Shown here: one piece after another, positions 26,636 through 32,813 of the stretch
Numbering within the stretch: position 1 is the stretch's first letter
How the letters are laid out: every line of letters starts with the position of its first letter
NCBI GenBank assembly: GCA_947632025.1
Contig: CANRNN010000017.1
Location: forward strand, 1 to 35,586
Direction of reading: 5' to 3'
DNA: 35,586 nucleotides
Source of the DNA: an uncultured Clostridia bacterium
GTDB lineage: Bacteria; Bacillota; Clostridia; Oscillospirales; Ruminococcaceae
Made by a program: the position numbers and the translations under genes
The notes under the pieces: model-generated
What the model was told of the DNA's origin: nothing
The model's database searches: none
What the model saw: only the letters and a program-made list of their open reading frames with translations

Positions 26636-26881
26636 ATGAAAAAAATAACTCTTAAGATCGACGGTATGATGTGCGGAATGTGCGAAAGCCATATAAACGA
26701 CGCGATACGCCGGAGCTTTCATGTAAAAAAAGTCAAGTCGTCGCATACTAAAGGAGAAACCGTGATAATATCTGAAACCGATATCAGCGAAGAGGATCTA
26801 CGCGACGCAGTCGAAAGTACAGGCTACAAGGTCATTTCAGCTTCGAGCGAGCCATATGAGAAAAAAGGACTTTTCGGGTGA
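26636..26881 (+). CDS. Heavy-metal-associated (HMA/CopZ-like) protein
   Basis: 81 residues, ATG after GGGAGG. A single HMA domain with the metal-binding loop GMMCGMCESH (Cys at about 13 and 16), followed by the expected beta-alpha-beta elements (TVIISETDISEEDLRDAVES, GYKVISASS). Proteins of this kind carry Cu(I) or other soft metals in the cytosol, commonly to a P-type ATPase; no ATPase gene is visible here. It is single-gene and convergent with the cysteine-rich ABC operon. Confidence 0.9.
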   Translation: MKKITLKIDGMMCGMCESHINDAIRRSFHVKKVKSSHTKGETVIISETDISEEDLRDAVESTGYKVISASSEPYEKKGLFG

Positions 26882-26949: not shown

Positions 26950-28032
26950 TTAATTTACCTCGACGAACTTATCACCGTCAATGGTGTAGCCGTCGGGTAC
27001 TCCATCAAAATATTTGAAAGAACGTCCGACAAGTGCGTCGACGTCGGTAGTTTCCTTTAATACGCCGATCGCCTTAAGGTCGGTGCAGACGTTCGTAAGT
27101 GCGTCATAGCCGCCCTTGACGCTCGGCACAAAGTTGTAAGTACCAAGGATCTTCGCGTTTTCGGCGGGATCTCCGCTGACGTATTCACCGTCGACCTGCA
27201 TCTTTGCCGCTTCGTCAATATTAGCGGCTACCCACGCCGAGCCTTTAAGTACCGCTCGTGTAAACGCTGCGGCAATATCGGGGTGGTTTTCCGCAAGCTC
27301 GGAGGATACAAAGCTTACGCAGCAGTACTCGCTTGCGTAAGGCTCTGTGGCAGCGGTATCGAGCAGCACCTTAAGTCCGTATTCGTTCTGAGCGTTGGTT
27401 CCTACGGGATCAGGAGTGGCAATAGCGTCAACAGCGCCGTTCATGAGTGCTATAGGCTGGTCGGTAGTGTTGTAGACCGCAAATGTCACATCGCTCGACG
27501 CAGCCGATATATCCACTCCCGCTGCGTAAAGCGCACGCTTTGCGGTAACGGCTTCCGACCCCGCAAGAGAGCTTACTCCTATAGTCTTTCCTTTCAGGTC
27601 TTCAATGGAATTTATCCCCGAATCCGCTTTAACAAGTATCTTCGTGCAGCCCGTGTGCATTCCGGAAGTTATGACCATATTCAGACCGTTCTCTATAGGC
27701 TGCACGAATTTGCCCACAAGACCGAATCCGCAGTCGATAGTCCCCGCTCCGAGAGCCGCCTGAATATCGCCGCCCCCGAAATCGACACGTTCCCAGTTTA
27801 TACCCTCGTCATCAAGGAAACCGAGTTCCATCGCTGCCTGAAGCGGAGCATGGCACAAAGCTCCCTGAGTTTCTCCTACCTTCAGAACATAGGTATCGCC
27901 GTTGACGCCGCCGTTATTTGTGCTGCCGCCGCTTGCGCCATTGGAATTGCCCGAATTCACTTCAGAGCAAGCCGATGCGGAAAGCGCGGCTCCCGCCGCA
28001 AGTATAGCAGCTATAAATTTGTTGATCTTCAT
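26950..28032 (-). CDS. ABC transporter substrate-binding lipoprotein (SsuA/NMT1-like)
   Basis: 360 residues with a signal peptide and lipobox SASAC (Cys near 22), a Gly/Ser/Asn linker, then a two-lobe periplasmic-binding fold like SsuA/TauA/THI5 proteins (VGETQGALCHAPLQAAMELG, later INSIEDLKGKTIGVSSLAGS). AGGAA precedes the ATG. The mature part has seven cysteines (GALCHAP, TIDCGFG, HTGCTK, SEYCCVSF, TNVCTDL), which is unusual for this class and points to a metal, thiol or sulfur ligand. Last gene of the operon, with permease and ATPase upstream. Confidence 0.9.
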   Translation of the reverse strand: MKINKFIAAILAAGAALSASACSEVNSGNSNGASGGSTNNGGVNGDTYVLKVGETQGALCHAPLQAAMELGFLDDEGINWERVDFGGGDIQAALGAGTIDCGFGLVGKFVQPIENGLNMVITSGMHTGCTKILVKADSGINSIEDLKGKTIGVSSLAGSEAVTAKRALYAAGVDISAASSDVTFAVYNTTDQPIALMNGAVDAIATPDPVGTNAQNEYGLKVLLDTAATEPYASEYCCVSFVSSELAENHPDIAAAFTRAVLKGSAWVAANIDEAAKMQVDGEYVSGDPAENAKILGTYNFVPSVKGGYDALTNVCTDLKAIGVLKETTDVDALVGRSFKYFDGVPDGYTIDGDKFVEVN

Positions 28033-28085: not shown

Positions 28086-28265
28086 TCAGCAGCATCTGCC
28101 GAGATCCGCGGCAGTACCGACCGTATCCGTCAATTCGGCAGCGTGACCCGTATGATCGTTTTGTGAGTTTTCCGAAATATTCGAGGAATTTTCATCGCAC
28201 GCAGAAAGCAAAACCGCAATTGCGAACACCGCGACCCCCACGGTCAATTTCTTCGGTAATTTCAA
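28086..28265 (-). CDS. Tiny lipoprotein with a C-terminal Cys-Cys
   Basis: 59 residues. I choose the TTG at 28265 because GGGG lies 6 to 7 bases upstream and it gives a normal basic signal start (MKLPKKLTVGV); a GTG three codons earlier is too near the site. The lipobox LLSAC gives a mature peptide of about 35 residues with DHTGH and ending GRCC. It starts 12 bases after the ATPase gene and precedes the binding-protein gene. Not recognised. The paired His and terminal Cys-Cys suggest ligand or metal handling next to the binding protein. It might instead be the relic of a duplicated binding-protein gene. Confidence 0.65.
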   Translation of the reverse strand: MKLPKKLTVGVAVFAIAVLLSACDENSSNISENSQNDHTGHAAELTDTVGTAADLGRCC

Positions 28266-28277
28266 ATCTGTCACCCC

Positions 28278-29057
28278 TTAAATATTGTATTCTATCTCGT
28301 GCTCCTTGCCCGCAAAGTCGAGTATTTTCAGTATTTCGCTTCTAAGGCGTATGAATTCGGGATTGTTTCTGTCGCGCGGCTGCGAAAGCGTCACGGTAAG
28401 CACCTTTTCTATTTTCGCAGGACGCGGCGACATCACAACTATTTTGTCCGAGAGATACACCGCCTCGTCAACATCGTGAGTCACCATTACCATGGTCATA
28501 TTTTTCTCGTGCTTTATGCGGAGCAGTTCGTCCTGCATATTCATTCTCGTGAACGCGTCAAGCGCTCCGAGAGGTTCGTCAAGCAGCAGCGCCTTGGGGT
28601 GTCCTATCAATGCCCTAGCAAGTGAAGCACGCTGGCACATTCCTCCCGAAAGCTGATGAGGAAACGATTTTTCAAATCCCTTAAGTCCCACCAGTTCTAT
28701 ATATTCATCAACAGTTTCCTTTTTCTCTTTGAATATGTGACGTGTTTTCAGCCCGAACGCAACGTTCTCGTAGATATTCAGCCACGGGAAAAGATTATGC
28801 TCCTGAAAGACAAGCCCGCGGTCATAGTTGGGCTTTGTGATTTTTTCGCCGTCAATATAGACTGTTCCCTCAGTCGGTTTGTCAAGCCCCGCAAGCAGTC
28901 GCAGCATGGTCGATTTTCCGCAGCCCGACGGACCGATAAGGCACACCATATCCCCCTGTTCTATCGTGAGATCCACTCCGTTCAGAGCATCCACTCTTTC
29001 GCCGTCCACACGGATAAAGCTCTTTTTTACATTCTCGAAAACAATTTCGCCTACCAT
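28278..29057 (-). CDS. ABC transporter ATPase (SsuB/TauB-like)
   Basis: 259 residues from ATG 29057, 6 bases after GGGAG and overlapping the permease end by 7 bases. Walker A is GPSGCGKST, the Q-loop lies in FQEHNLFPW, the signature is LSGGMCQRASLARAL (Met-Cys in place of the common Met-Arg/Gln-Gln), Walker B is LLLDEPLGALD and the switch His is in THDVDEAVYLSD. It hydrolyses ATP to drive the permease. It belongs to the nitrate/sulfonate/taurine importer family. Confidence 0.95.
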   Translation of the reverse strand: MVGEIVFENVKKSFIRVDGERVDALNGVDLTIEQGDMVCLIGPSGCGKSTMLRLLAGLDKPTEGTVYIDGEKITKPNYDRGLVFQEHNLFPWLNIYENVAFGLKTRHIFKEKKETVDEYIELVGLKGFEKSFPHQLSGGMCQRASLARALIGHPKALLLDEPLGALDAFTRMNMQDELLRIKHEKNMTMVMVTHDVDEAVYLSDKIVVMSPRPAKIEKVLTVTLSQPRDRNNPEFIRLRSEILKILDFAGKEHEIEYNI

Positions 29058-30016
29058 TTGATAACTCCCTTCTGCCATGCGAGAACACGGTCGCGTATCT
29101 TGAAAAGTATCGTTATTACGAGGAAGAACAAAACAGCGATAACGATAAGTCCCGCGTAGACATTCGCGTATGCCATCATTTCCTTTTGCCAGTTTACATA
29201 CCAGCCCATACCGTACTTTGCGCCGATCATTTCGGCGGTCATTAACGCTACGAACGATGAGCAGATACCGTTGAAAAGTCCTAGGAAAATACTGGGCATC
29301 GCGGCGGGGATACCTACTTTTACAATTCGCTGAAAAGTGTTTGAGCCGAGCGTTGAAGCCACTTCAAAGTAAGAATTCTTTACGTTGGAAATACCGCTTG
29401 ACGTAAGCACGACAGTCGGAAACCACACCGAAAGTCCGATAATGAACGCGCTTGCCGAACGCGCCGTAGGAAACGCGATAAGCACTATCGGTATCCATGC
29501 TGTCGAGGGTATCGGTCCGAGGATACGCACCAGAGGATTTATCCAGTAGCTTATATGCTTTGAAAATCCGACTCCCACGCCCATAAGGAAACCGATCACA
29601 AGACCTCCCACAACACCTGCAAGAAGTATTCCTGAGGAATAGCCCACACATTTAAGTATCAGCTGATGATCCTCGAAAAGAGTTCCGAAAACGCGGTCAA
29701 GCGTCGGAAAATAAAGCGTCGGCAGCACGGCTGTTTTCGCCGTGAGAATATTCAGCACGTTCAGAAACAGTATCACTCCTGCCACGAACGGCGCACGGTA
29801 AAACGTGCCTTCGCGGGGCGCAGCGGAATTTCTGTGCCTGAAATAACCGATTATCGCCACTGCAAAATAGACTATTACGATCGCGGGCAAAAGCCACGCA
29901 AAGTAAGGGTGAGCCGCCGCCTGGTGCTTCGGCGAATCCGGCACAGCGAGAGCGATCACCTCGGCAGCCGCCGCCGACAAAATCAACAGCAGCGGATATA
30001 TTATTGTTTTCTTCAT
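29051..30016 (-). CDS. ABC transporter permease (SsuC/TauC-like)
   Basis: 321 residues, longer at the N-terminus than usual SsuC, with two extra membrane segments (about 5-25 and 40-60) before the six-helix BPD_transp_1 core. The EAA loop is VKVGIPAAMPSIFLGL, which docks to the ATPase. GGAG precedes the ATG. It starts 15 bases after the DUF1847 gene. Integral membrane protein forming the channel of the importer. The two added helices may be a family trait of the DUF1847-linked transporters. Confidence 0.93.
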   Translation of the reverse strand: MKKTIIYPLLLILSAAAAEVIALAVPDSPKHQAAAHPYFAWLLPAIVIVYFAVAIIGYFRHRNSAAPREGTFYRAPFVAGVILFLNVLNILTAKTAVLPTLYFPTLDRVFGTLFEDHQLILKCVGYSSGILLAGVVGGLVIGFLMGVGVGFSKHISYWINPLVRILGPIPSTAWIPIVLIAFPTARSASAFIIGLSVWFPTVVLTSSGISNVKNSYFEVASTLGSNTFQRIVKVGIPAAMPSIFLGLFNGICSSFVALMTAEMIGAKYGMGWYVNWQKEMMAYANVYAGLIVIAVLFFLVITILFKIRDRVLAWQKGVIKW

Positions 30017-30031: not shown

Positions 30032-30751
30032 TTATTTTATATTTCCCACGGGGATCTTGGAGTAGTCGATCTCCTCACCGACAGGTGCGAGAAGCAACTT
30101 TTTGTAATAAGCTCTCGACTGATAAAGCGCCCCGACGGGATTGTGCGCGAGAACTCTGTCCTTTGTCACGAGCGTTGTCGTAAGTCCGTTCGCATACTTG
30201 TAGAACAGGCTGTCGTGACCGACACAAAGTCCTACGACGACATTAAGGTCTACTTTTTCGCGGTTAAGTATTTTAGCCTGCAGAATGGGGTTGCACATCA
30301 CCTTGCCGGTTACGCAGGTGTATTTTTCGTCTATCCCGATATCGACCTTGTCGACCGAGCCGGATTTGCAGCTTATCCCGTATACCTCAAAACCGTTGAG
30401 CTTGAGTATCTTCGCGAAGATCCTGCTCTCCTCGATAAGACCGATACAGGTGGCGATGCCTATCTTTTTTGCGCCGATCCTGCGTGCGAATTCAACTATT
30501 TCCTCGACGCGGGTATATTTCCCGTAGAATCCGCCCTCTACCTCCGCGGCGGCGATGGCAACTTTTTTGTTTATTCTGTTGTTTGTGTAGAGCTTTACGA
30601 CCTCGTTTATTTCCTCTTCTGTAAGAGCGGCAGTCGGGCAGAATTCGGGATAATTTCCGTTTCTTTTCGCGCAGTTCATAACCGAGCAGTCGGTGCAGCT
30701 AAGGCAAGGCGAAGCCGCGGCAGGATTTGTTGTTTTGGTTTTGTCAGACAT
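30032..30751 (-). CDS. DUF1847 cysteine-rich protein
   Basis: 239 residues, ATG after GGAGG. The N-terminus has a cysteine cluster (SPCLSCTDCSVMNCAKR, then EFCP) suitable for binding zinc or an Fe-S cluster. A body with IGIATCIGLIEESRIFAKIL, VVGLCVGHDSLFYKYANG and a GKVMCNPILQA segment follows, the DUF1847 pattern. Its function is not established. It heads the ABC operon directly after the leader terminator, and co-transcription with a Cys-rich binding protein suggests it uses or senses the imported compound in the cytosol. Confidence 0.85.
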   Translation of the reverse strand: MSDKTKTTNPAAASPCLSCTDCSVMNCAKRNGNYPEFCPTAALTEEEINEVVKLYTNNRINKKVAIAAAEVEGGFYGKYTRVEEIVEFARRIGAKKIGIATCIGLIEESRIFAKILKLNGFEVYGISCKSGSVDKVDIGIDEKYTCVTGKVMCNPILQAKILNREKVDLNVVVGLCVGHDSLFYKYANGLTTTLVTKDRVLAHNPVGALYQSRAYYKKLLLAPVGEEIDYSKIPVGNIK

Positions 30752-30770: not shown

Positions 30771-30798
30771 TAAATAAAAAGGACGCACCGACGCGTCC
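30771..30798 (-). terminator. Leader terminator (attenuator candidate) before the DUF1847-ABC operon
   Basis: On the minus strand GGACGC/GCGTCC (30793-30798/30781-30786) with a 6-base loop is followed by TTTTTATTTATTTT. It lies between the leader peptide stop (30817) and the first structural gene (30751), so transcripts would end before the operon unless something prevents it. This is the layout of transcription attenuation. Confidence 0.8.
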
Positions 30799-30930
30799 CC
30801 GACTATGCTTTGACCATTATTGCGGAAAACATATCGCACAGAAAACACGCCGTATATACCCGTATCCATGACACAGGCGCATACACATCATTTTCCGCGA
30901 GTCGTTTATGTAGGAGCGTGAAAGCATAGT
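30776..30930 (-). promoter_or_regulatory. Structured leader RNA with nested long-range helices
   Basis: On the minus strand ACTATGCTTT (30921-30930), which contains the leader start codon, is perfectly complementary to AAAGCATAGT (30802-30811), just before the terminator. Nested inside, GCGGAAAA (30891-30898) pairs with TTTTCCGC (30822-30829), and further in ATGCGCC pairs with GGCGTGT with two G-U pairs. Cys15 and Cys19 codons follow the 5' arm of the second helix and Cys30/Cys33 precede its 3' arm, so a ribosome stalled at either pair would open it. It matches no riboswitch class I can recall. Confidence 0.6.
30817..30927 (-). CDS. 36-residue cysteine-containing leader peptide
   Basis: ATG at 30927 is preceded by AAGGAGA 7 bases upstream, and the transcript starts about 50 bases earlier from a consensus promoter. 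The peptide begins MLSRSYINDSRK, holds MMCMRLC (Cys15, Cys19) and ends RRVFCAICFPQ (Cys30, Cys33). All four Cys codons are TGT. It ends 19 bases before the terminator stem. The position and the repeated codon are typical of a leader whose translation reports the level of charged tRNA-Cys. The end of the peptide loosely recalls predicted sulfur-metabolism leader peptides of Actinobacteria with an RVxSAxC end, from memory only. Alternatively it is a real Cys-rich metal-binding peptide. Confidence 0.65.
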   Translation of the reverse strand: MLSRSYINDSRKMMCMRLCHGYGYIRRVFCAICFPQ

Positions 30931-30953
30931 GATCTCTCCTTGAAATTGAATGC

Positions 30954-30968
30954 CTACCAATTTAGTAG
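30954..30968. promoter_or_regulatory. Palindromic operator candidate downstream of the promoter
   Basis: CTACCAATTTAGTAG is a 15-base palindrome with one mismatched pair, placed just after the -10 of the ABC operon promoter. A/T-centred palindromes with CTAC/GTAG arms would suit a repressor, for example an Rrf2-type sulfur regulator such as CymR, but no regulator is encoded nearby. Confidence 0.4.
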
Positions 30969-30984
30969 TCTTTCGTATAATCAT

Positions 30985-31013
30985 ATTATATCACCAACGA
31001 AAAGAATTGTCAA
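30985..31013 (-). promoter_or_regulatory. Promoter of the leader-DUF1847-ABC operon
   Basis: On the minus strand perfect TTGACA (31008-31013), 17-base spacer and TATAAT (30985-30990), about 58 bases upstream of the leader peptide ATG. The strength fits a constitutively started transcript controlled downstream by the terminator. The 197 bases between here and the sigma-factor start at 31211 hold no visible gene. Confidence 0.9.
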
Positions 31014-31210: not shown

Positions 31211-31768
31211 ATGGATAACGGTGCAAGTAGCTACCGCCGTTACCTTGACGGCGACGACAGCGGGCTTTCGGAAATAGTTGAAACGTACAAGGACGGTCTT
31301 ATTCTATATATCAACACTTTTGTAAACAATATTTGCGCTGCCGAGGAGCTTGCTGAAGACACCTTCTTCAGGCTGATAACAAAAAAGCCGAGGTTTTCGG
31401 GGAAATGCAGCTTTAAGACGTGGCTGTACACAATTGGGCGTAATGTCGCGGTCGATCATATAAGGCACAGCTCGAAGCTCTCTAACACGCCTATTGAAGA
31501 TATGGAAAACTATATTTTCGACGAGCAGTGTCTTGAAGAGTCGTACATAAAAGAAGAACGAAAAATGACGGTGCATAAGGCGCTTTCAAAGCTCAGTCCC
31601 GATTACAGACAGATATTGTGGCTCATTTATTTTGAGGAATTATCAAATAAAGATGCCGCAAGGATAATGAAAAAGTCCCCGCGCCAGATAACAGACCTTT
31701 TATATCACGCAAAACTTTCTCTCAAAAACATTCTAACAAAGGAGGGCTTTATTTATGAAGACATCTGA
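31211..31768 (+). CDS. ECF-type RNA polymerase sigma factor
   Basis: 185 residues, AGGAG 8 bases before the ATG. Region 2 (about 20-85) includes AEELAEDTFFRLITKKPRF and FKTWLYTIGRNVAVDHIR. Region 4 (about 115-175) includes LSPDYRQILWLIYFEELSNK and ITDLLYHAKLSLK with the HTH. It overlaps the next gene by 14 bases, the usual coupling to an anti-sigma factor. It would direct a small regulon, probably including this operon, in response to an extracytoplasmic signal. Confidence 0.92.
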   Translation: MDNGASSYRRYLDGDDSGLSEIVETYKDGLILYINTFVNNICAAEELAEDTFFRLITKKPRFSGKCSFKTWLYTIGRNVAVDHIRHSSKLSNTPIEDMENYIFDEQCLEESYIKEERKMTVHKALSKLSPDYRQILWLIYFEELSNKDAARIMKKSPRQITDLLYHAKLSLKNILTKEGFIYEDI

Positions 31769-32813
31769 AGAAATGACAAAAAGCCTGCTCAAACGCAGAA
31801 ACGAATATTTCTCGGCTCAAAAGCGCAGAAGGACTGCCGCCGTTAAAATAGCGAGGGCGGGGTCTGTGACCTGCTGTGTTGCCGCGGCGGCAGTTGTGGG
31901 CGTAAATGTTCTTAATCGGAAAAATTCCGTTACAAACGACATCACGCCCGTTGTTTCAACACCCGACACTAACCAAAATTCAAACAGCGCAATTTCTTCT
32001 TCTGACAGTGTCAACAATTCTCAGACGCCGAATGTTCAGTCCACGCCGACAACATCAGAAACACCCGAAATACCCGAAAATGTCATCTGGTCGCAGAGCA
32101 GTACGGGCGGCGTAAGCATTTCCGAAAGCGTATGTATGACATTATGGCACGGAAAGCCTGTGTCGTATGAGTTAAAAAACGCGTTCGATAAATATGACGA
32201 CGGCAGCATTTTCGCGGTGTCATTGCTGACAGGATACAGCGCTGACTATGTTTACAACGGCAGAACAATAAGTGAAATGCTCGATGAACAAACTGAACTT
32301 GGAAATAAAATTGAGAAACTCCGTGAGTTCGTGAAAACTTACGACTATGTAATGGAGCAGGAAGAAGTTCAACACCTTACATCGGGAGATGAAACGGAGA
32401 TATTAAACACTTATGTAAATAACGGCAAGACAGTTATGGAAACATTAAAATCATTAGGCGATTATATAACGGACGGGAAGTTTGACAGAGAAAAACTTGA
32501 AGCCGATGTTGAGGCAGGGGAGAAAGCCCTTGAAAGTCTGCGTGATGAAATAATAATCGCTAAAGAGCTGTCACTAAAAGCTGCTTTTGAAAATACAATA
32601 TCTGAACTCAAAGCAAAAAACATTCCGTTTGAGCTGCGCGAATTAAAGGGTGATATTCCTACGAATTACAGCAGGAACATTATCATAATTTACATCTCGG
32701 AAAACGATCTTGCGGACCTCGAACTAAGCGAACAGGATAGTATCCTATTCGGATTTGCAAGCAAAAACGCAAACGGCGAGGATATTGTATACGATATGAT
32801 AGTTGAGTGTTGA
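31755..32813 (+). CDS. Membrane-anchored probable anti-sigma factor
   Basis: 352 residues. A short, basic cytoplasmic N-terminus (1-30) is followed by one membrane segment (about 32-52, AGSVTCCVAAAAVVGVNVL), then a Ser/Thr/Pro/Asn-rich stalk to about residue 110 and an extracellular part with a helical, Glu-rich stretch (about 170-275). The pairing with an ECF sigma gene by a 14-base overlap is the main evidence. The cytoplasmic part is too short for a full zinc anti-sigma domain, so sigma binding would rely on this short segment. ATG with GGAGG upstream inside the sigma gene. Confidence 0.7.
   Translation: MKTSEEMTKSLLKRRNEYFSAQKRRRTAAVKIARAGSVTCCVAAAAVVGVNVLNRKNSVTNDITPVVSTPDTNQNSNSAISSSDSVNNSQTPNVQSTPTTSETPEIPENVIWSQSSTGGVSISESVCMTLWHGKPVSYELKNAFDKYDDGSIFAVSLLTGYSADYVYNGRTISEMLDEQTELGNKIEKLREFVKTYDYVMEQEEVQHLTSGDETEILNTYVNNGKTVMETLKSLGDYITDGKFDREKLEADVEAGEKALESLRDEIIIAKELSLKAAFENTISELKAKNIPFELRELKGDIPTNYSRNIIIIYISENDLADLELSEQDSILFGFASKNANGEDIVYDMIVEC

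Follow-up and report, generated by a model that had tools for sequence, protein, structure and literature searches.

The leaders of the enteric trp and his operons are trp-type ribosome-mediated transcription attenuators. In Firmicutes, control by cysteine is usually ascribed to T-boxes and CymR, the Cys T-box sensing tRNA-Cys charging via termination control. Mycobacterial polycysteine short open reading frames were reportedly described by Canestrari in 2020 and, according to the title of that work, are leaderless. Leader-peptide attenuation in Firmicutes is reported, in the available parts of the sources, for the Listeria Rli60 leader of ilv-leu, with branched-chain amino acids (PMC5864092), and for the His leaders of bacillar hisS/hisZ (PMC2965389). 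For cysteine, the available text on the uORFC-8-2 motif before cysS in Rhodobacterales describes a leader whose Cys codons stand in tandem, usually at 14-15, together with an intrinsic terminator (PMC8632094), and actinobacterial Cys leaders before cys operons are described, in the sections available, as having no obvious terminators, no conserved terminator hairpin having been found (PMC1262725). Our literature search, run outside most subscription journals, yielded no cysteine leader-peptide attenuator described for Clostridia.

Here, we analyzed a locus of this kind in a stretch of 35,586 nucleotides from an uncultured Clostridia bacterium, referred to as the window. In an earlier note on this DNA, a promoter, a ribosome site, a 36-codon frame with four TGT Cys codons and a terminator had been read in front of an operon. 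All of these were confirmed in place between 31013 and 30771 on the minus strand, with the Cys codons at positions 15, 19, 30 and 33 of the frame. The leader comprises the following features, including the RNA arms proposed for it:

30985..31013, minus strand: sigma-70-type promoter, TTGACA-17-TATAAT with TG before the -10 (12/12 matches)
30953..30968, minus strand: operator-like dyad CTACTAAATTGGTAGG between promoter and Shine-Dalgarno (SD) sequence, a possible second control (pattern from the window site and the L194 cysK promoter)
30936..30941, minus strand: SD sequence AAGGAG of the leader frame (direct reading)
30817..30927, minus strand: leader frame MLSRSYINDSRKMMCMRLCHGYGYIRRVFCAICFPQ, 36 codons, 4 TGT Cys codons (sequence; Cys-rich analogues at 4/80 other DUF1847 loci)
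30883..30885, minus strand: Cys15 codon TGT
30871..30873, minus strand: Cys19 codon TGT, with the strongest modelled antitermination among the Cys codons (ribosome model)
30838..30840, minus strand: Cys30 codon TGT
30829..30831, minus strand: Cys33 codon TGT
30837..30899, minus strand: predicted 1:2 hairpin over codons 10-31, arms 30899-30870 and 30866-30837 (MFE fold)
30841..30852, minus strand: region 2, putative antiterminator 5' arm CGGCGUGUUUUC, 12 pairs with 30800-30789 (MFE with the ribosome at Cys19)
30789..30800, minus strand: region 3 GGGGACGCGUCG, predicted shared arm, which is the terminator 5' arm and pairs with region 2 or with the terminator 3' arm (MFE)
30771..30800, minus strand: intrinsic terminator and T-rich tract (stem 30800-30779, -11.4 kcal/mol)

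Over 2 kb scanned, 7 promoter-like sites were found versus 3.2 expected, the window promoter being the sole one with 12/12 matches. The terminator, whose stem starts 17 nt after the leader stop codon, is by itself unremarkable, since 4 terminator-like sites were present where 2.2 were expected (2 kb scanned). The exclusive use of TGT in the leader is unusual (about 0.002 by simple multiplication), because the eight genes in this part of the window contain 29 TGC and only 8 TGT codons. The leader RNA fold was more stable than those of shuffled sequences (z -2.8), only 1/200 of which folded equally well. Neither Rfam at gathering score (segment 31013-30771) nor the T-box covariance model RF00230 gave a match at this locus, only a tRNA being found elsewhere in the window, and the leader frame had no Pfam or NCBIfam match. 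We also observed a perfect 10-base complement between the leader start region ACTATGCTTT (30921-30930, minus strand) and the pre-terminator stretch AAAGCATAGT (30802-30811, minus strand). This pairing is present in the computed fold of the leader RNA and may close the leader start codon in the finished transcript.

In its parts, the window element resembles trp-type attenuators: codons of the regulated amino acid in the leader frame, predicted alternative 1:2, 2:3 and 3:4 pairings, and an intrinsic terminator. Its frame is SD-led, an enrichment for codons of the linked amino acid is kept in related leaders (no such leader at 76/80 loci), and the terminator lies between the stop codon and the first gene. 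In contrast to the trp type, the codons are for Cys, the genome is clostridial, the operon encodes a DUF1847 protein and an ABC importer, and, of the four Cys codons, two are located past the putative antiterminator arm. The Rli60 and hisS/hisZ leaders share with the window leader-peptide attenuation in Firmicutes, but concern, as far as their sources were available, branched-chain amino acids or histidine, Bacilli, and biosynthesis or tRNA synthetase genes. Likewise, uORFC-8-2 combines a Cys leader frame with an intrinsic terminator, but by its available description belongs to Alphaproteobacteria, precedes only cysS and has its Cys codons within the first stem. The mycobacterial and actinobacterial frames are likewise short, contain Cys codons and precede cys operons; where the window has an SD-led frame and an intrinsic terminator, the mycobacterial attenuators, from the partial accounts at hand, have a leaderless Cys-run ORF without a terminator. 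The Cys T-box, finally, senses tRNA-Cys charging by termination control as proposed here, but binds the tRNA directly, and no T-box is present at the window locus. As far as searched, the proposed mechanism of the window element is ordinary, whereas its place and amino acid are new for Clostridia.

The leader precedes the following genes:

30032..30751, minus strand: DUF1847 protein, first gene of the operon (PF08901, 1e-62), with SD sequence GGAGG at 30763-30759
29051..30016, minus strand: ABC permease (PF00528; all NCBIfam matches below cut-offs)
28278..29078, minus strand: ABC ATPase (PF00005)
28086..28274, minus strand: small lipoprotein-like frame, 62 amino acids, without Pfam match
26950..28032, minus strand: NMT1/SsuA-type substrate-binding lipoprotein (PF09084, 2e-22; TIGR01728 below cut-off)

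The importer had been called SsuABC-like. This stands at the level of the family (NMT1, PF09084) but not for the substrate: the NCBIfam transporter matches remained below their cut-offs, the binding protein scoring 118 bits against TIGR01728 (SsuA_fam), where the cut-off is 163.5. The 62-residue frame between ATPase and binding protein (28086-28274) has a lipobox-like start (LLSAC) and resembles the beginning of a lipoprotein. A gene for an 81-residue heavy-metal-associated (HMA) domain protein (26636-26881, plus strand) converges on the end of the operon. On the other side, two frames (31211-32813, plus strand) diverge from the operon and share the intergenic region with the leader promoter: one encodes an ECF-type sigma factor, and its partner has no Pfam match. 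No paper naming DUF1847 was found in our literature search. The gene is likely a sulfur or cysteine gene, because its neighbours in the relatives L079, L080, L081 and L085 are metY-like, cysK, aminopeptidase-like and transporter genes (mostly named by likeness); cysK stands beside DUF1847 in L080 and a metY-like gene, named by likeness, in L079.

To model the switch, each codon of the leader was placed in the ribosomal A site and the RNA left free downstream of the ribosome was folded, using several footprints. Placing Cys19 there gave terminator probabilities of 0.03-0.13 at footprints of 10-13 nt, 0.30 at 14 nt and 0.74-0.75 at 15-16 nt. With Cys15 they were 0.22-0.26 (10-11 nt), 0.90-0.92 (12-15 nt) and 0.50 (16 nt). 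A ribosome at the stop codon gave 0.99 at all footprints, and a leader free of ribosomes 0.89. Since Cys30 and Cys33 lie beyond region 2, stalling at either is predicted to end in termination (0.90-0.99). Permuting the non-Cys codons reached the modelled drop in 14/120 cases, so that the window model, taken alone, is only suggestive of an antiterminator switch.

In the proposed mechanism, a ribosome would translate the leader frame in the wake of RNA polymerase. With abundant Cys-tRNA, it would run past region 2 to the stop codon, the region 3:4 terminator would form, and transcription would stop. When Cys-tRNA is scarce, the ribosome would stall at the first Cys codons, above all Cys19, within region 1, leaving region 2 (30852-30841) free to pair with region 3 (30800-30789), so that no terminator forms. 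The DUF1847 protein and the ABC importer would then be expressed and a sulfur source brought in. Without any ribosome, the 1:2 hairpin would retain region 2 and the terminator would form. The window element is, in our view, very probably a ribosome-mediated transcription attenuator sensing charged tRNA-Cys. Direct control by cysteine, as hypothesized in the earlier note, is supported by Cys leaders at related loci, by the modelled antiterminator and by a wider family before sulfur genes.

The suggested search for short Cys frames at related operons bore out the idea in part of the loci. We compared the best 80 of 329 DUF1847 relatives from genome contigs, which with the window made 81 loci. 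SD-led frames with 5-6 Cys codons followed by a terminator occurred at 4/80, namely, L058, L061 (Hespellia stercorisuis), L072 and L079. No leader with terminator was found at the other 76/80, including 19/22 with at least 78% identity, giving a patchy distribution; at several leaderless loci, a promoter-like TTGACA...TATAAT was seen by eye close to the gene. Frames preceded by an SD and having 4 Cys or more (9% or more) were present in 7/81 upstream regions versus a mean of 0.30 loci in dinucleotide shuffles (40 rounds). The seven were the window, the four loci named above, and L115 and L137, which have Cys-rich frames but no terminator and were not counted as leaders, as was L116 (4 Cys in 57 residues, weak hairpin). 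With a strict terminator test, 3 loci were observed versus 0 in the shuffles of the same 81 regions (40 rounds). A gene-blind scan of both strands of the 81 sequences (761,527 bases) for SD-led frames containing four or more Cys (9% or more) and then a hairpin-and-T site yielded 14 combinations: 5 before DUF1847, the window included, 1 before cysK in L080 (Anaerotignum) and 8 elsewhere. Among these eight, six overlap open frames of at least 150 codons and two read as ferredoxin-like genes.

Between the leaders of L058 and L072 there are an in-frame 18-nt gap and many replacements, yet they retain 6 and 5 Cys, respectively, and both have the arm CTGCCCTGCGC; by their sequence, the two are one lineage. 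Apart from this pair, the five DUF1847 leaders share no peptide motif besides Cys. In the ribosome model, the terminator probability of L058, L061 and the cysK leader L196 changed in the same sense as in the window, while L072, L079 and L080 showed no switch at equilibrium. Permutations of non-Cys codons, run on the four of these seven first leaders that switched in the model (the window, L058, L061 and L196), reached the observed drop in 18/120 for L058, 4/120 for L061 and 6/120 for L196. Support from permutation is weak across the seven leaders, and the case for the mechanism leans on the family of 19 loci described below.

Within the genus of the window, DUF1847 was found at E of at most 1e-30 in 3/43 genomes, the window's own included. 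One of them (G648:C47) has the leader of L058, placed identically within the contig, and the remaining one (G651) has a distant DUF1847 without a leader. Whole-genome DUF1847 searches (21 loci, then 16 new ones) revealed no leader beyond those of the window, L002 (identical to L072) and L138 (identical to L079). Rfam at gathering scores, run on 14 sources with other DUF1847 loci, returned only a Clostridiales-1 sRNA and a tRNA. The former (RF01699; L060, 4690-4844, minus strand) comes from Butyrivibrio sp. MC2013, where it is found immediately upstream of DUF1847 but on the opposite strand. In transporter operons without DUF1847, seven stretches surrounding related permeases or cysK contained no convincing Cys leader.

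In the Anaerotignum genome, a Cys-rich leader with a terminator preceded both cysK matches, the second reading MEKKNMYCCCKMYSWAFYMA... at its start. No SD-led frame of at least 4 Cys plus terminator was found at the 30 best cysK loci of the window's family, no such leader stood directly before cysK at 29 further loci of the Anaerotignum genome's family, and the window genome's own cysK has no Cys leader. As none appeared at these 30 + 29 further loci, only one genome has so far yielded putative cysK leaders. L165, L169 and L174 have weaker frames before cysK, each of them SD-led, with 3 Cys but without an intrinsic terminator; that of L174, MNIPVKYRRCCRCL, has 14 codons and lies about 92-47 nt before the gene.

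MYCC and parts of the next stretch are common to the DUF1847 leader of Hespellia and the cysK leader of Anaerotignum. When 397 genomes of the Hespellia family were searched with a profile built from this pair, 56 matches were obtained in 53 genomes (E of at most 0.05), and 50/56 matches were inspected. Leader frames with the motif CC(C)RM..SRAY.MA, partly degenerate, were present at 18 loci and, with L196, at 19: L061, L196 and 17 loci among L255-L299. At L261, where the initial match fell within metY, a profile of 11 leaders revealed the leader just upstream; L298 reached only E 4.7 with that profile and was kept for its likeness to L285, its terminator and its gene. The genes that follow are metY-type O-acetylhomoserine sulfhydrylases (9), extracellular amino-acid binding proteins (5), cystathionine-lyase or O-acetylhomoserine-sulfhydrylase-like genes (2), and cysK, DUF1847 and DUF2292 (1 each). 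These assignments come from family models for five genes (cut to 261 residues, all below curated cut-offs) and the DUF2292 gene, and from likeness for the rest; the two binding proteins tested were nearest to cystine and lysine/arginine/ornithine models. One genome (G1099) contains three loci of the family.

Most family leaders carry CTCCCGGGCA just after the Cys codons, complementary to the terminator 5' arm TGCCCGGGAG. Over 19 loci and 10 pairs, 185/190 cells pair, compared with at most 184 (mean 179.7) when partner arms were reassigned among loci in 1000 trials, a comparison uncorrected for kinship and based on arms put in register by hand. Two-sided changes occur at 3/10 pairs, from G-C to A-U (L261/L299 and L256/L277/L299) and from A-U to U-A (L262). 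The complementarity of the 3' arm is an independent result, because the peptide search made no use of that arm. In the ribosome model, 15/18 loci switch (L299, which has no terminator, was left out), whereas 40 codon-permuted sets averaged 1.2 and reached at most 4 of 18; a switch was defined as a terminator probability of at most 0.5 when stalled at the paired Cys codons and at least 0.65 at the stop codon, thresholds set after the modelled values were seen. Terminator picks for L277, L285, L286 and L288 and the Cys pick for L298 were set by hand. L258, L289 and L286 did not switch. Unlike the textbook case, 10/18 loci were modelled as antiterminated without a ribosome (terminator probability at most 0.25). 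No match was obtained with Rfam at gathering scores for 12 loci (11 of the family and that of the window), with NCBIfam for five family leaders and the L058 leader, or with Pfam for five family leaders and the window leader. By these searches, the 19 loci are an uncatalogued RNA family. That they are Cys attenuators is predicted by computation throughout, and we hold it with more confidence than the same reading of the window element. As this wider family of Cys leaders stands before sulfur genes, the mechanism appears to be general.

The window leader was not found by the 11-leader profile at E up to 5. Its arm CGGCGTGTTTTC lies 6 codons after Cys19, whereas family arms like CTCCCGGGCA follow just after the tandem Cys codons. 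It is similar in anatomy but, judged from its letters, no member of the 19-locus family, and the simplest reading would be a separate origin of the same device or divergence beyond recognition.

Arrest peptides are able to act through the same RNA switch, so the leader could instead be an arrest peptide or a thiol or metal sensor, in which ribosome stalling, and with it the terminator switch, would be caused by the nascent Cys-rich chain and not by uncharged tRNA-Cys. The window peptide is basic and Cys-rich, and in the 19-locus family residues besides Cys are conserved (RM..SRAY.MA). However, SRA is explained at the RNA level, because these residues are encoded by the antiterminator arm CTCCCGGGCA; RM and Y.MA have no such explanation. 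Against it, too, the five DUF1847 leaders have no common motif beyond Cys, except in L058/L072, and the downstream genes are mostly sulfur genes, as codon sensing predicts. We regard an arrest peptide as improbable. Still less credible is a small functional Cys-rich protein of the operon, such as a metal-binding chaperone; a length of 36 residues and two Cys pairs would suit it, but the frame has no Pfam/NCBIfam match, related leaders have few residues in common besides Cys, and the terminator stem begins 17 nt after the stop codon.

Control could also lie at initiation, with a repressor or a LysR-type activator at the dyad 30968-30953, the frame being a chance ORF and the terminator basal. 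Dyads similar to that of the window occur just after the -10 of L194 cysK, at promoters in L183, L198 and L203, and in L079 near a metY-like gene, and a LysR gene precedes cysK in the window genome. Nevertheless, a looser dyad pattern was not enriched in that genome (14 matches versus 19 for a reversed control), and Cys-rich frames with a terminator recur at DUF1847 and cysK above the shuffled expectation. Initiation and attenuation can moreover coexist, as the accessible account of CodY and Rli60 in Listeria indicates (PMC5864092). Initiation control in place of attenuation therefore seems to us about as improbable as an arrest peptide, and tRNA-Cys attenuation is the reading we retain. A dyad regulon in the window genome is not claimed, because the second exact match there sits inside a coding frame.

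The window genome also contains five T-box matches, three of them above the cut-off. One of these three, at L250 1501-1713, precedes cysE-cysS, and its specifier region GAAGUGCA apparently presents UGC (Cys) by our own reading. The remark in the earlier note that T-box and CymR control are usual in Firmicutes thus holds in part for this organism, which has a T-box before cysE-cysS and an operator-like dyad after the window promoter. If both predictions hold, one cell would sense tRNA-Cys charging via a T-box at cysE-cysS and via a leader peptide at the DUF1847 operon.

Taken together, we think it likely that Clostridia near Lachnospiraceae/Ruminococcaceae possess a cysteine-sensing leader-peptide regulon outside Rfam, Pfam and NCBIfam. 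It would comprise at least one conserved RNA family, before metY-type, cystine-type transporter, cysK, metC-type, DUF2292 and DUF1847 genes, and separate members like that of the window, whose genome apparently also reads tRNA-Cys by a T-box. The leader would tie the uncharacterised DUF1847 protein to cysteine supply, and the cysteine leader-peptide route would allow cysteine-responsive genes of these Clostridia to be predicted from sequence. The window genome may offer an example of two distinct RNA devices that sense the same charged tRNA within one genome.
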